From Candidatus Doudnabacteria bacterium (GTDB lineage Bacteria; Patescibacteriota; Doudnabacteria; UBA920), in the NCBI GenBank assembly GCA_003151625.1, contig PLYC01000032.1:1-52034 (forward strand): DNA of 52,034 bases. Direction: 5' to 3'. Below, piece after piece: positions 3,467-22,770 of the stretch. The position numbers were made by a program, and so were the translations under genes. Position 1 is the first letter of the stretch. Each line of letters starts with the position of its first letter. The notes below the pieces were generated by a model. It ran no database searches and was not told where the DNA came from. It was given only the letters and a program-made list of their open reading frames with translations.

Positions 3467-4044
3467 TAGATTGGACTCTTTCTTTTTTCGATAAAATCCC
3501 GCAAGCCAATTTAAACGCCACACCCACCCCCGTAATTTCTCTATAGGGATAATTGTCATTCGGATTTTTAGGGTTAATAAGCGCATAAGCCTTTGGCGCC
3601 TCGCCGATTATTTCGTGGTGGTCGGTGATAATTAAATCTATATTATTTGCTGCGCAAAATTCCGCCGCGTCCACGGAATTGGTGCCGCAATCTACGGTGA
3701 TGATTATTTTCGCGCCGTCGTCGCGAATCTTTTCCAGCGCCTCGATGTTAACTCCGTAACCTTCGGTAAATCTGTCCGGAATGTATGTTGCCGCGTCCAC
3801 TCCCAAATATTTAAAGGTCTGCCCAAGCACGGCGTTAGCCGTAATCGCGTCGGCGTCATAGTCGCCGTAAATACAAATTTTTTGATTTTGTTCAATCGCT
3901 TCCCAAATTCTCCCCACCGCCTTTTCCATATCCTTAAACAAAAAAGGGCTGTGCAAATTTTCGTATTTCGGCTCCAAAAAACCCTCTATCTCATTTTTCT
4001 CCACCAACCCGCGGTTAAAAAGCAGCTGTGCGAGTAAAACATAG

Positions 4045-4115
4045 CCCCCCTCTTCCCCCTTGTCCGTCGAAACTTTAGCGAAGGCGGATGGGAGAAGGCC
4101 GGGGTGAGGGTTCAA
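4045..4115 (-). repeat. Family K palindrome with nested Q word, in frame in recJ
   Basis: On the minus strand the outer arms are CCCTCACCCCGGCCTTCTCCC-like and GGGGGAAGAGGGGGGC, as in the repeats flanking the DUF559 gene. Nested between them is CCGCCTTCGCTAAAG...ACGGACAAG, a family Q-like piece. The insert reads NPHPGLLPSAFAKVSTDKG in RecJ, between the N-terminal strand and QLLFNRG, and adds roughly 25 residues without breaking the frame. Confidence 0.7.
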
Positions 4116-18036: not shown

Positions 18037-18720
18037 TTATAAATTGATTATTTTATTAAAATCGGTTGCATTTAAACTCGCTCCGCCGACCAATAAGCCG
18101 CCGACATTCTGCTGTTCTAAAAATTCCTTGGCGTTGGCCGCGTTGGCAGAGCCCCCGTATAAAACTATGGGCACACCGTATTTGGTTTTTATAAAAATAG
18201 ATATTTTTTCCACGTGCTCCGAGGTGGCGTTCTTGCCGGTTCCAATAGCCCACACGGGTTCGTAGGCGACGATAACTTTTGACTTATCTACCCCTGCAAG
18301 GTCCACATCCAGTTGGCTCTTTAAAATATCCGTAACTTCCAAATCATCGTGTTCAACCGTGGTGCCGAAACCAATGCAAATTACCGGGATAATATTCTGC
18401 GCCAAAAGCGCTTTAGCCTTGGCGTTTACCATTTCGTCCGTATCCCCTACCGCGCGCCTTTCGCTGTGCCCAATTATGCAATATTTAATCTTTAAATCTT
18501 TCAATTGCAATGCCGAAACCTGCCCGGTAAACGCGCCCTTCTCCTGCCAAAAACAATCTTGAGCCCCGATATTTGGATATTGGATATTAGATAGATATAT
18601 GGTTGGTGGACAAAGCACAACCTTATTTTTAGCCTTAACCGATATCGAAGCCGCCAACGCCTGCGCGTCTTTAAGCGTGCTTGGATTTAGTTTCCAGTTG
18701 GCGATGATTAGTTTTTTCAT
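18037..18720 (-). CDS. tpiA: Triosephosphate isomerase, short form
   Basis: It interconverts dihydroxyacetone phosphate and glyceraldehyde 3-phosphate. Catalytic residues are visible: N8 and K10 (ANWKLN), H85 in IIGHSERR and E154 in AYEPVWAIGTGK, with LYGGSANAAN and GLLVGGASL at the phosphate site. At 227 residues it is about 25 shorter than typical bacterial enzymes, with shortened helices between H85 and E154. Its ATG overlaps the GxxExxY stop (TAATG). Confidence 0.95.
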   Translation of the reverse strand: MKKLIIANWKLNPSTLKDAQALAASISVKAKNKVVLCPPTIYLSNIQYPNIGAQDCFWQEKGAFTGQVSALQLKDLKIKYCIIGHSERRAVGDTDEMVNAKAKALLAQNIIPVICIGFGTTVEHDDLEVTDILKSQLDVDLAGVDKSKVIVAYEPVWAIGTGKNATSEHVEKISIFIKTKYGVPIVLYGGSANAANAKEFLEQQNVGGLLVGGASLNATDFNKIINL

Positions 18721-19151
18721 TATTTATTCCGATCTACAGATTCTTGAGATTTTACAGATACCTGCAGATGATTAATATTTAAAATTCGTTGGGGTTTTAA
18801 ATATTTAGCTCTAAAATTTACCAATATTCCCAGCTTTAAATTAGTTTGTTGCAAATACCTTTGTACTTGCTCAAAATCTTCCCTTTGCAAAAACGGCTTA
18901 GCTTTAAACTCCAAAACAATCAAATCCCAAACAATAAAATCTGGCCTATCAAGGATGTCCCCTACACTTTGTTCTCTTAAGTATGGAATTAATTTAAGTT
19001 TAAACCTTTCTTCAGCTTTATCGCAATAGTGCTTTTCTTTGGCGAATCTTCCAAGTTCATTATGAGTAGCAAAAAGAATTCCCCTTAATTTATAGGTTTC
19101 GTCACCATATAAAAATTCGTCTTGATTAATCATAAAATTATGTTTCAACAT
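18720..19151 (-). CDS. GxxExxY family PD-(D/E)XK nuclease-like protein
   Basis: The 143-residue protein fits the GxxExxY family: YKLRGILFATHNELGRFAKEKHYCDKAEERF (the motif region), a nuclease-like core PDFIVWDLIVLEFKAK with the D...ExK pattern, and QVQRYLQQTNLKLGILVNF with RILN near the end. Family function is unknown. The gene is enclosed by inverted repeats of word family H: the last 15 codons lie in one arm (18723-18768) and the start codon touches the other (19150-19195). The start may be 19151 or 19133; neither has a Shine-Dalgarno. The cassette fills exactly the gap between galT and tpiA. Confidence 0.85.
   Translation of the reverse strand: MLKHNFMINQDEFLYGDETYKLRGILFATHNELGRFAKEKHYCDKAEERFKLKLIPYLREQSVGDILDRPDFIVWDLIVLEFKAKPFLQREDFEQVQRYLQQTNLKLGILVNFRAKYLKPQRILNINHLQVSVKSQESVDRNK
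18723..18768. repeat. Family H inverted repeat, left arm
   Basis: It starts TTTATTCCGATCTACAGATT and continues with GAGATTTTACAGATAC and TGCAGATG. The arm at 19150-19195 is its reverse complement with about 39 of 45 matching positions by eye. Confidence 0.85.
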
Positions 19152-20441: not shown

Positions 20442-20882
20442 TTATGGCCCTTTCAATTTGGCTAAATAATTTTGCAAAAGTATTTGTGCGGCTAAACTGT
20501 CAACGTATTTGCTTTTATCCGGTGATGTTTTGCCCACCTTTTTATTATTTTTAGTGGGCAATCCGCCGAAGCCTTGGCGAAGGTGGACCGCCATTTGCGA
20601 AGATAACCGCTCATCCATAATTTCCACCGGTAATCCTGTCTGACTTTCAACTTTAATCTTAAATCTTTCAACTTCTTCGGTCTTCTTTGTCCTCCCCCCG
20701 TCCATATTCAGCGGCCAGCCGAGCACGATTTTTGAAATTGAATGATTTAAAATTAAAAGATTTAAAGATTGCCAAAACTCCTTAGGAGACAAGATATCCA
20801 ACTCCCTTGCTAACGTAAAACTTTCATCGCTTATTGCCAATCCGATCCTCTTCTCGCCATAATCGATTCCGAGTATTTTCAT
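20442..20882 (-). CDS. ruvX: Pre-16S rRNA nuclease / Holliday junction resolvase-like RuvX (YqgF), with repeat-encoded insert
   Basis: The RNase H-fold protein shows GIDYGEKRIGLAISD (residues 4-18), ILGWPLNMDG and MDERLSSQMA, then DSLAAQILLQNYL at the C terminus, the standard YqgF order. Between the DERLSS helix and the last helix it has HLRQGFGGLPTKNNKKVGK, where most homologues are shorter; LRQGFGG is encoded by a family Q palindrome (20562-20588) next to a TTGCCCAC/GTGGGCAA stem. The frame is intact. Its start overlaps the DUF559 stop (ATGA). Confidence 0.92.
   Translation of the reverse strand: MKILGIDYGEKRIGLAISDESFTLARELDILSPKEFWQSLNLLILNHSISKIVLGWPLNMDGGRTKKTEEVERFKIKVESQTGLPVEIMDERLSSQMAVHLRQGFGGLPTKNNKKVGKTSPDKSKYVDSLAAQILLQNYLAKLKGP
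20530..20588. repeat. Family Q palindrome and nested stem inside ruvX
   Basis: TTGCCCAC (20530-20537) pairs with GTGGGCAA (20554-20561) and is followed by CCGCCGAAGCCTTGGCGAAGG, the Q core also found at 4397-4422. Together they add about ten residues to RuvX. Confidence 0.7.
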
Positions 20883-21277
20883 AATGCGTCCTGCAGTCTC
20901 CCCTCTCCCGCTTGCGGGGGAGGGTTAGGGTGGGGGCTGATAATAGCTAGCCTAATTGTTTCCAAAGCCCCTTCTAAATTATTATCTAATTCATTATTCC
21001 AAAATCTTAGCACCTTGTATTTGTTAGCAACCAAATAATCTTCTTTCAGCTTGTCTTGTTCTGATATTGACTTGCCGCTGTGCTGGCTTCCATCCAGCTC
21101 TATGGCCAATCTTTTATTCTTGCAACAAAAATCCACAATATATTTTTCACCAAAAGGTACCTGACGCCTAAATTGTTCGTCACACATTCTGTGATTTCTT
21201 AAATACTGCCATAATTTTGCTTCCCAGGGATTTTTGCTTTTTCTTTGTTCCCTTGCTAGTTTAATTAGTGTGCTCAT
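20879..21277 (-). CDS. DUF559 protein, Vsr-like PD-(D/E)XK endonuclease fold
   Basis: The 132-residue protein starts with the DUF559 pattern: ARELRK-like helix, NPWEAKLWQYLRNHRMCDEQFRRQVPFGEKYIVDFCC, then KRLAIELDGSQH (the D...ExD nuclease core) and YKVLRFWNNEL. The family resembles very-short-patch-repair endonucleases; activity is unproven. Its last 17 or so residues (HPNPPPQAGEG) are read from a family K palindrome. An inverted copy of the same palindrome lies before its start, so the whole looks like a cassette between degP and ruvX. Confidence 0.88.
   Translation of the reverse strand: MSTLIKLAREQRKSKNPWEAKLWQYLRNHRMCDEQFRRQVPFGEKYIVDFCCKNKRLAIELDGSQHSGKSISEQDKLKEDYLVANKYKVLRFWNNELDNNLEGALETIRLAIISPHPNPPPQAGEGRLQDAL
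20888..20943. repeat. Family K palindrome at the DUF559 3' end
   Basis: It reads CCCCTCTCCCGCTTGCGGG then GGAGGGTTAGGGTGGGGGC, so it is itself a hairpin. It encodes the C terminus of the DUF559 protein. The copy at 21283-21331 is in opposite orientation. Confidence 0.8.
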
Positions 21278-21282
21278 AATTC

Positions 21283-21331
21283 CCCCTCCCTAGCCCTCCC
21301 CCCTCAGCTGCATTCGGGGAGAGGGAAGGGA
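21283..21331. repeat. Family K palindrome at the DUF559 5' end
   Basis: On the minus strand it reads CCCTTCCCTCTCCCCGAATGC then GGGGGGAGGGCTAGGGAGGGGG, matching the other copy in inverted orientation. It fills the space between the degP stop and the DUF559 start. Confidence 0.8.
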
Positions 21332-21341
21332 ACAGAAATGC

Positions 21342-22613
21342 TTATTTTGTTTCCCCCAGCGTTACCTTAACATCGTTCTCCTGCCCTTTATGGTAAACCT
21401 TTAAGGTTACAACATCATTCGGGCTATAATTAGACAACAGCGATGACAGTGTATGATTCTGGTCCACTTTTGTCCCGTTAACTTCCAAAATAATATCGTT
21501 CTCGACTAAACCCGCTTTGTCCGCCGGACTGCCGGGCAAAACCGCAAAGTCGGTAACGTTCTGGCCACGCACTATAAGAGCGCCATAATCGCGCGGCAAT
21601 TTTTGCTGGCTGGCAATATCCGCGGTTAAAATAATATAACGAACACCCAAAAACGCGCTGGTAATTTTTCCGTTCTTCTGATAACTGGCTACGGCCTTGG
21701 CAACCTCATTGGATGGAATGGCAAAACCCACCAGCTGACCCTGCTGGTCTATGGCGGTATTTATCCCCACAACCTGTCCGGCAATATTCAGCAAAGGTCC
21801 GCCGCTGTTGCCCGGATTAATAGCCGCGTCGGTTTGAATTACACCGGACAAATTTTCACTGCCAGTGTCACTCCCGGCGGTTATGCTCCGGCCAATACCA
21901 GAAACAATCCCGCTGGTCACGGTATTTTGATATTGCCCCAAGGAATTTCCAATGGCAATAACATGCTGGCCGACCTGGAGCTGTGAAGAATCGGACAATT
22001 TAAGAAATGGCGCGTTCTGAATAGTAATTTTTACCAGCGCTAAATCGTTGGTTGGATCCTGCGCCAAAACTTTAGCGTCATACTTTTTACCATCGGATGT
22101 TATAACCGTGTAACTGGCTGTGGTATCCGATACCACATGCTTATTGGTTAAAATTAAACCATCGGCCGAAATAAAAAATCCGCTCCCGGCGCCAACTTCC
22201 TGAATGTTGGGCGTGGCAGGAGTTTGCTGCTCGGACTGGCCGTCGCTGTTAAAAAAATTAAAAAACGGATCCTGGCTAAAAGGATCCATCCCATAGCCCG
22301 GAATTTTATTTAAATCCTGAGAAATAATAATGGAAACCACGGCCGGACTGGCCTGTTTTACCACATCCACCGTGGAAGAGTCTTCGTTAAAGGTAACTTT
22401 CTGGTTTAAGCCGGCGCTGAAAGATTCCCCCAGTAATTTTTTCCCCGCCGAGGAACGCAAAAAATACAGACCGCCCAAAGCTCCGCCTATTCCGCCAAAA
22501 ACCAGGCTGCAGATAATCGCTAAAATTACTACCTTAAAGCTGATACTTTTTAAGCTGGTTGGTTTTGCCGGCTCTGGTACCAAAATAGACTGATCGTTTT
22601 CTTGTATTTCCAT
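21342..22613 (-). CDS. DegP/HtrA-type trypsin-like serine protease with PDZ domain
   Basis: Residues 29-50 form a membrane segment (KVVILAIICSLVFGGIGGAL), so the protease domain lies outside. The catalytic triad is visible: His in LTNKHVVSD, Asp in PTNDLALVKI and Ser in NPGNSGGPLLN. One PDZ domain follows (LPGSPADKAGLVENDIILEVNG). Such envelope proteases degrade or sense damaged proteins. The start at 22613 is taken because the upstream frame would begin before the promoter; no Shine-Dalgarno is evident. The stop is followed by the DUF559 cassette. Confidence 0.95.
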   Translation of the reverse strand: MEIQENDQSILVPEPAKPTSLKSISFKVVILAIICSLVFGGIGGALGGLYFLRSSAGKKLLGESFSAGLNQKVTFNEDSSTVDVVKQASPAVVSIIISQDLNKIPGYGMDPFSQDPFFNFFNSDGQSEQQTPATPNIQEVGAGSGFFISADGLILTNKHVVSDTTASYTVITSDGKKYDAKVLAQDPTNDLALVKITIQNAPFLKLSDSSQLQVGQHVIAIGNSLGQYQNTVTSGIVSGIGRSITAGSDTGSENLSGVIQTDAAINPGNSGGPLLNIAGQVVGINTAIDQQGQLVGFAIPSNEVAKAVASYQKNGKITSAFLGVRYIILTADIASQQKLPRDYGALIVRGQNVTDFAVLPGSPADKAGLVENDIILEVNGTKVDQNHTLSSLLSNYSPNDVVTLKVYHKGQENDVKVTLGETK

Positions 22614-22667
22614 ATTGGTTAATATTAACAATATTCCCATCAAGAAAGATGGATATTTTATACTAAC

Positions 22668-22695
22668 ATTATAACATAAAATCGGCTTTATCCAA
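22668..22695 (-). promoter_or_regulatory. Probable degP promoter overlapping a hairpin
   Basis: On the minus strand TTGGAT (22695-22690), 16 nt, then TGTTATAAT with TATAAT at 22673-22668. The -35 box lies in the loop of a CGGCTTT/AAAGCCG stem (22684-22702) that may end the dnaX transcript. Confidence 0.5.
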
Positions 22696-22713
22696 AAAGC
22701 CGGAACAAATAAT

Positions 22714-22770
22714 GAGATGGGCACCATCTCAACAATGTAGATAAAGCCCAAAGACGATGCCCATCTCTCA
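22714..22770. repeat. GAGATGGGC inverted repeat between dnaX and degP
   Basis: GAGATGGGC and GCCCATCTC, both perfect 9-mers, are separated by about 37 nt that include a repeated ATCTC. It lies directly after the dnaX stop and may form part of its 3' end. Function unknown. Confidence 0.5.

Follow-up and report, generated by a model that had tools for sequence, protein, structure and literature searches.

The BoxC/PIT/TM_ECO repeat of E. coli and other proteobacteria has been described as an intrastrand triplex repeat, composed of a C-rich 9-nt arm, a short loop, a G-rich arm, a second loop of 3 nt (TTA or CCG type) and a second G-rich arm, and occurring as singles and as inverted pairs (PMC4666352). 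Strains with high and low TM content have been contrasted, with 29 motifs in strain 55989 and 1 in IHE3034, and TM sites were reported to have no mobility activities in their vicinity (PMC4666352). The repeat is present in hundreds of genomes, is tied to genome instability and has gone unexplained in E. coli for decades, and no gene had previously been linked to its spread. In the REP/REPIN system with its RAYT (TnpA-REP) genes, a single-domain enzyme gene lies between inverted palindromes of its own kind, gene-less copies occur as singlets and inverted doublets, enzyme and palindrome diverge together, and the gene copy number is low. RAYTs are HUH tyrosine enzymes that use GTAG-tagged hairpins (PMC8266576). 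Two further comparisons are offered by the EDxHD homing endonucleases such as I-Bth0305I, together with Vsr, and by the Rickettsia palindromic elements, which are palindromic repeats in frame within essential genes.

In this study, we describe a DUF559 nuclease gene enclosed by inverted G-rich hairpins in a 52,034-nt stretch of Candidatus Doudnabacteria DNA (the window). The locus follows the REP/RAYT plan in all the respects listed above; however, the enzyme is predicted to be PD-(D/E)XK/Vsr-like and not an HUH tyrosine transposase, and the terminus carries a putative third strand instead of GTAG, no constant GTAG (or CGTC) tag having been found at the hairpin foot in the DUF559 flanks inspected by eye. 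The layout of its ends is that of BoxC/PIT/TM, but while the published work knows no nearby mobility gene, here each DUF559 gene has its own variant of the repeat, stems containing AT follow the same triplex rule, and copies in the genome of the window lie in frame inside genes. Unlike the EDxHD homing endonucleases, DUF559 has no intron or intein host and is bounded by inverted PIT units, and unlike the Rickettsia elements, the same element also exists in a nuclease-bearing version. The repeat is thus already known, and the DUF559 partner and the covariation of arm and tail are apparently undescribed as far as the literature searched: no paper linking DUF559 with BoxC/PIT/TM repeats was found there, most subscription journals were outside its scope, and an earlier report is possible.

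The DUF559 cassette between degP and ruvX

The open reading frame between degP and ruvX (Table 1) matches the PF04480 profile with an E value of 8.4e-32 and 109.7 bits against a curated cut-off of 20.6. Its stop codon shares 4 nt with the ruvX start (ATGA, 20879-20882), and the gap from the stop side of degP (21342) to the ruvX start (20882) is occupied by the DUF559 gene and two inverted G-rich hairpins, both with G-rich tails directed inward, into the gene. The downstream hairpin, CCCTCTCCC-GCTTGC-GGGGGAGGG, spans 20901-20924 and is followed by TTA and GGGTGGGGG up to 20936. The original prediction from this DNA, that a palindrome (K) encodes the DUF559 C terminus, is borne out by its translation as ...PHPNPPPQAGEG..., and the inverted K copy predicted before the DUF559 start was found with bounds of 21282-21325 (formerly 21283-21331), so that the coordinates also agree with the claim that the gene and two K copies fill the degP-ruvX interval.

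Table 1. Positions of the DUF559 cassette, its neighbours and a further repeat copy in the window
Feature	Position	Strand	Remarks
DUF559 (PF04480) single-domain nuclease gene, 132 aa	20879..21277	-	profile match and fold
ruvX, right-hand neighbour of the insertion	20442..20882	-	
degP-like protease gene, left-hand neighbour of the insertion	21342..22751	-	
Downstream PIT/TM-type unit, tail into gene	20900..20936	+	Y1 CCCCTCTCCC 20900-20909, loop1 GCTTGC, R1 GGGGGAGGG 20916-20924, loop2 TTA, R2 GGGTGGGGG 20928-20936
Upstream inverted PIT/TM-type unit, tail into gene	21282..21325	-	Y1 21316-21325, loop1 ~12 nt, R1 21294-21302, loop2 TAG 21291-21293, R2 21282-21290 (read on minus strand)
AGACTGCAG-type outer border	20891..20899	-	AACTGC-like sequence also seen beyond the hairpin in many related cassettes
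Gene-less degenerate in-frame copy in recJ	~4044..4112	-	K arms plus tail AACCCTCACCCC; loop1 contains a further, nested palindrome

The hairpin arms of the upstream and downstream copies match at 90% over 21 nt. G-rich hairpins with a stem of at least 9 in the entire 52-kb window are exactly the two DUF559 flanks, against 0-1 (mean 0.15) in 20 dinucleotide shuffles. The plain DNA hairpin stability of the two units is only mildly above that of shuffles (z ~ -1.5), thus structure energy by itself is weak and uninformative evidence, and an Rfam search of the region gave no family reaching its curated cut-off.

Terminal units and the putative third strand

Each cassette end is laid out as a C-rich arm (Y1), loop1, a G-rich arm (R1), loop2 and a G-rich tail (R2). 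Loop2 measures 3 nt in most ends and otherwise ~12 or 18-19 nt, often with a hairpin nested inside. R2 is the mirror image of R1, in which G stays G and A becomes A or T. The mean mirror agreement of tails with their own arms was 0.921, versus 0.775 +/- 0.007 when tails were dealt to other ends, and the own tail fitted better than that of the other end of the same cassette in 79 ends and worse in 8. Held-out inner positions also obey the rule (A to T in 34/37, G to G in 36/45 and T to A in 16/23), and the covariation of tail and hairpin holds across divergent stems, including those containing AT. An intrastrand purine triplex would be expected to show such a pattern, although the evidence consists of sequence covariation only and folding has not been shown. 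If true, this would be an instance of selection acting on a DNA triplex structure, as the third strand changes in step with the hairpin.

Both window units fit the PIT/TM consensus CCCTCNCCC N3-6 GGGNGAGGG N3 GGGNGAGGG with 1-2 mismatches, the upstream one with a longer loop1, and the gene-less copies in the same genome fit it or nearly so. Judged from these motif comparisons, the K repeat is not a bare palindrome; it is a hairpin plus a putative third strand, and is the BoxC/PIT/TM repeat already known.

Association of DUF559 genes with G-rich hairpins

The class of the window, Doudnabacteria, comprised 49 genomes, 35 of them with DUF559, and gave 78 full-length genes with both flanks available. 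A G-rich hairpin was present within 200 nt upstream of 65/78 genes, downstream of 66/78, on both sides of 56/78 and on either side of 75/78, against 14 of 750 control windows (1.9%) from the same loci. In an independent set of 80 loci from ~20 phyla, retrieved by protein only, 78 could be scored; the hairpin was found upstream in 70/78, downstream in 69/78, on both sides in 63/78 and on either side in 76/78, with 27/1176 (2.3%) in control windows. The association of DUF559 with the hairpins is general across bacteria and near universal, not local.

The original prediction would have been refuted by K hairpins being equally common in genomes without DUF559, and they were not. The exact K hairpin was found in 24/35 Doudnabacteria genomes with DUF559 and 0/14 without (p 1e-5), and among 274 gammaproteobacterial genomes in 48/60 with the gene and 41/214 without (odds ratio 17, p 5e-18), phylogeny being ignored in both tests. 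Exceptions are 19 DUF559-negative gammaproteobacterial genomes with at least 5 K copies, one of them with 56 copies and no background. DUF559 was not found in three gammaproteobacteria with 36-56 K hairpins (G102, G100, G137), which might reflect a lost gene, an assembly gap or another partner.

Several divergent DUF559 copies occur per genome in Doudnabacteria, and palindrome distance tracks protein distance (Mantel r 0.33, 0/2000 permutations). Within a cassette, the two ends are more alike than ends from different cassettes, and genomes with an exact K stem at a DUF559 flank carry more dispersed K copies (p 0.007). Two DUF559 cassettes (L083, L089), from two genomes of the same family, apparently have tRNA genes on either side.

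Predicted fold and active site of the nuclease

The AF2 model of the window protein (pLDDT 84) matched 3hrl, of the same family, with Z 14.3, the homing endonuclease domain of I-Bth0305I (3r3p) with Z 11.3 and Vsr (1cw0) with Z 9.5. The invariant residues E19, D49, D62 and H66 reproduce the catalytic pattern of the EDxHD enzymes and Vsr and are consistent with the active site of Vsr type that has been described in a DUF559 protein of Caulobacter (PMC12907096). On this model the fold of DUF559 is PD-(D/E)XK, similar to that of Vsr and homing endonucleases; cleavage has not been shown. Weak matches of the DUF559 alignment profile to unrelated PDB chains (E at least 0.02) were dismissed.

Copies within the genome of the window

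The 1.50-Mb genome contains two additional DUF559 genes with K-like flanks, one with units on both sides (L012) and the other with an intact unit upstream and a degenerate one downstream (L011). It also contains a gene-less doublet, the two units of which are separated by ~20-25 nt (L002), and 7 further perfect K hairpins CCCTCTCCC-N-GGGAGAGGG, each with a AACCCTCACCCC-type tail. All 7, as well as the degenerate recJ copy, are in frame within genes. A third, gene-less K copy inserted in frame in recJ had been predicted; this copy is real, if degenerate and with a palindrome nested in loop1, and the copies had been undercounted, given the 7 perfect hairpins and two DUF559 genes. The host genes include PurH, CarB, Ddl, DusB and PurL, as we name them from recognition of their sequences. 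In the PurH, CarB, Ddl and DusB orthologues the host loops are variable and several relatives have palindromes of their own there, so the exact length of the insertion could not be fixed. In the PurH loop (L253, L255, L257, L258) palindromes lie in frame at the same position in several species, with K-like hairpins sharing a single codon position in four members of the genus, and in the CarB loop (L246, L251, L243, L247) those at the same position in several species come from more than one repeat family.

Insertion sites

In alignable cassettes from unrelated contexts, similarity ends at the outer hairpin edges (L012/L082, L020/L031, L025/L067, L030/L031, L038/L085); in the pair L039/L097 it runs ~10 nt past the hairpin edge, through the AACTGC border. 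There is good support for mobility of the cassette as one piece. Most members of the family have a degP-ruvX junction that is empty or almost empty, as the original prediction had anticipated for relatives. The junction holds DUF559 cassettes with differing palindromes in G000 and G041, a presumed GIY-YIG-like gene with TGTCATCCCGGA inverted repeats in G036 (L130) and a presumed GxxExxY-like gene with other, CCGAATTA-type repeats in G037 (L134), the last two genes being named by sequence recognition. No consistent target-site duplication was found: the relatives at degP-ruvX are too divergent, and the TM doublet between fepB and entC of E. coli has at most a 3-nt TAA repeat. Gene-less repeats were recorded at L138-L141.

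ycjD and the TM repeats of E. coli

The DUF559 gene of E. coli K-12 is ycjD, located between sapF and fabI, with TM units on its 3' side and a different hairpin on its 5' side; motif no. 9 of MG1655 in Table 1 of PMC4666352 is apparently the copy beside it, judging by sequence and map position. The gene is present in 3365/5426 complete E. coli genomes. The number of TM copies in an E. coli genome varies from 1 to 30. ycjD is present in 55989 and absent from IHE3034, the only two strains for which TM count and ycjD status were joined. The O157:H7 record examined lacks ycjD, and sampled O157:H7 genomes have ~13 TM copies, so either the copies can persist after the gene is lost, or the tie between the two is weaker than proposed. 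A clean empty site was not found in ycjD-minus E. coli, because an efflux operon replaces the sapF-fabI interval. Between E. coli genomes, the fepB-entC TM doublet is cleanly present or absent as a block of 186 nt, and extra imperfect inverted repeats (TAATGACAAATTCGACAAAGCGCA / TATTGATGGATTCGCATAAGCGCA) lie outside its TM units (L260 661-848). In the Klebsiella plasmid pVA126-339, a degenerate, unannotated DUF559 relic is followed by two inverted TM units (L233 1490-1900).

Proposed mechanism and alternative explanations

The locus is best read as a mobile cassette that resembles REP/RAYT in plan but has an unrelated nuclease, of the PD-(D/E)XK type. While the association, the covariation and the variety of contexts are observed, recognition, cleavage and movement are inferred, and we consider it likely that this is a small mobile cassette in which a DUF559 nuclease, bounded by inverted BoxC/PIT/TM termini, recognises or cuts the folded terminus and moves gene-less copies in trans. 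The terminal hairpin with its third strand would fold back as an intrastrand triplex, and the nuclease might recognise its own folded terminus in single-stranded DNA, for example at a replication fork, and might cut either that terminus or the target. Since strand rejoining is not within the capacity of a PD-(D/E)XK enzyme, the insertion would putatively be completed by repair or replication in the host. PIT/TM copies without a gene, which are dispersed singly and in pairs in DUF559-bearing genomes, may be moved in trans, as REPs are by RAYTs. That the nuclease itself does the moving is an inference, no transposition or cleavage having been observed. Caution is also required by the lack of a consistent target-site duplication, by the K hairpins in 41/214 DUF559-negative gammaproteobacteria, by O157:H7, by co-occurrence figures uncorrected for phylogeny, and by the mismatch-repair interpretation in Caulobacter (PMC12907096).

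The last of these belongs to a rival explanation, in which DUF559 acts in mismatch repair like Vsr and is carried as a passenger useful to the cell, and some unrelated activity moves PIT/TM. In Caulobacter, the DUF559 protein VsrA has been proposed to repair T:G mismatches and has a link to SOS induction (PMC12907096), and Vsr is a structural neighbour of the window protein. Repair, however, predicts neither inverted PIT units on both sides of 63/78 genes from ~20 phyla, nor several divergent DUF559 copies per genome, nor the covariation of palindrome and protein, and we regard this account as quite improbable. Somewhat more room, though still as an unlikely explanation, has to be left for a free-standing homing endonuclease that cuts the empty allele, the cassette being recopied by homologous repair and the hairpins being accessory and spread by slippage during replication or by repair in the host. 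I-Bth0305I (Z 11.3) and Vsr (Z 9.5) are among the closest folds after its own family, and sites are reoccupied, both at degP-ruvX, with different DUF559 cassettes in G000 and G041, and at the PurH position with its K-like hairpins in four genus members; yet homing alone leaves unexplained the dozens of gene-less copies at unrelated sites and the cassettes with unrelated flanks. PIT/TM units might also be permissive or unstable sites that catch many small genes and have no special tie to DUF559, and some junctions do accept many inserts, since relatives have a GIY-YIG gene or a GxxExxY gene at degP-ruvX. These genes come with different repeats of their own, and the tie between DUF559 and PIT is ~97% against a background of ~2%, which leaves this explanation strongly disfavoured and barely tenable.

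Returning to the mobile nuclease cassette, our results suggest that DUF559 is the missing partner that spreads the BoxC/PIT/TM repeat. Whether DUF559 and PIT/TM form a separate, bacteria-wide class of mobile elements is a wider claim, which to us stands about evenly balanced; in such a class a PD-(D/E)XK nuclease would mobilise triplex-forming termini, elements with the gene would be autonomous and those with the repeat only non-autonomous, and the BoxC/PIT of E. coli and many other bacteria would be explained. With ycjD as the partner, the question of how the repeat spreads becomes directly testable, and a large family of unknown function gains a functional lead. The GIY-YIG and GxxExxY genes at the same junction, with palindromes of their own, hint that the pairing of a nuclease with a palindrome may be a widespread and overlooked mode of life for selfish DNA in bacteria.

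Other palindromic repeats in the window

A GxxExxY-like nuclease gene at 18720-19151 of the window, between triosephosphate isomerase and galT-like genes, is another candidate nuclease cassette, for which no profile scan was made. DUF559 had been assigned to a different nuclease fold family from GxxExxY, which is doubtful, since both nucleases are assigned to the PD-(D/E)XK superfamily. In RuvX, the in-frame segment VHLRQGFGG (20558-20593) is apparently coded by a different palindromic repeat family, and RuvX is shorter in relatives.
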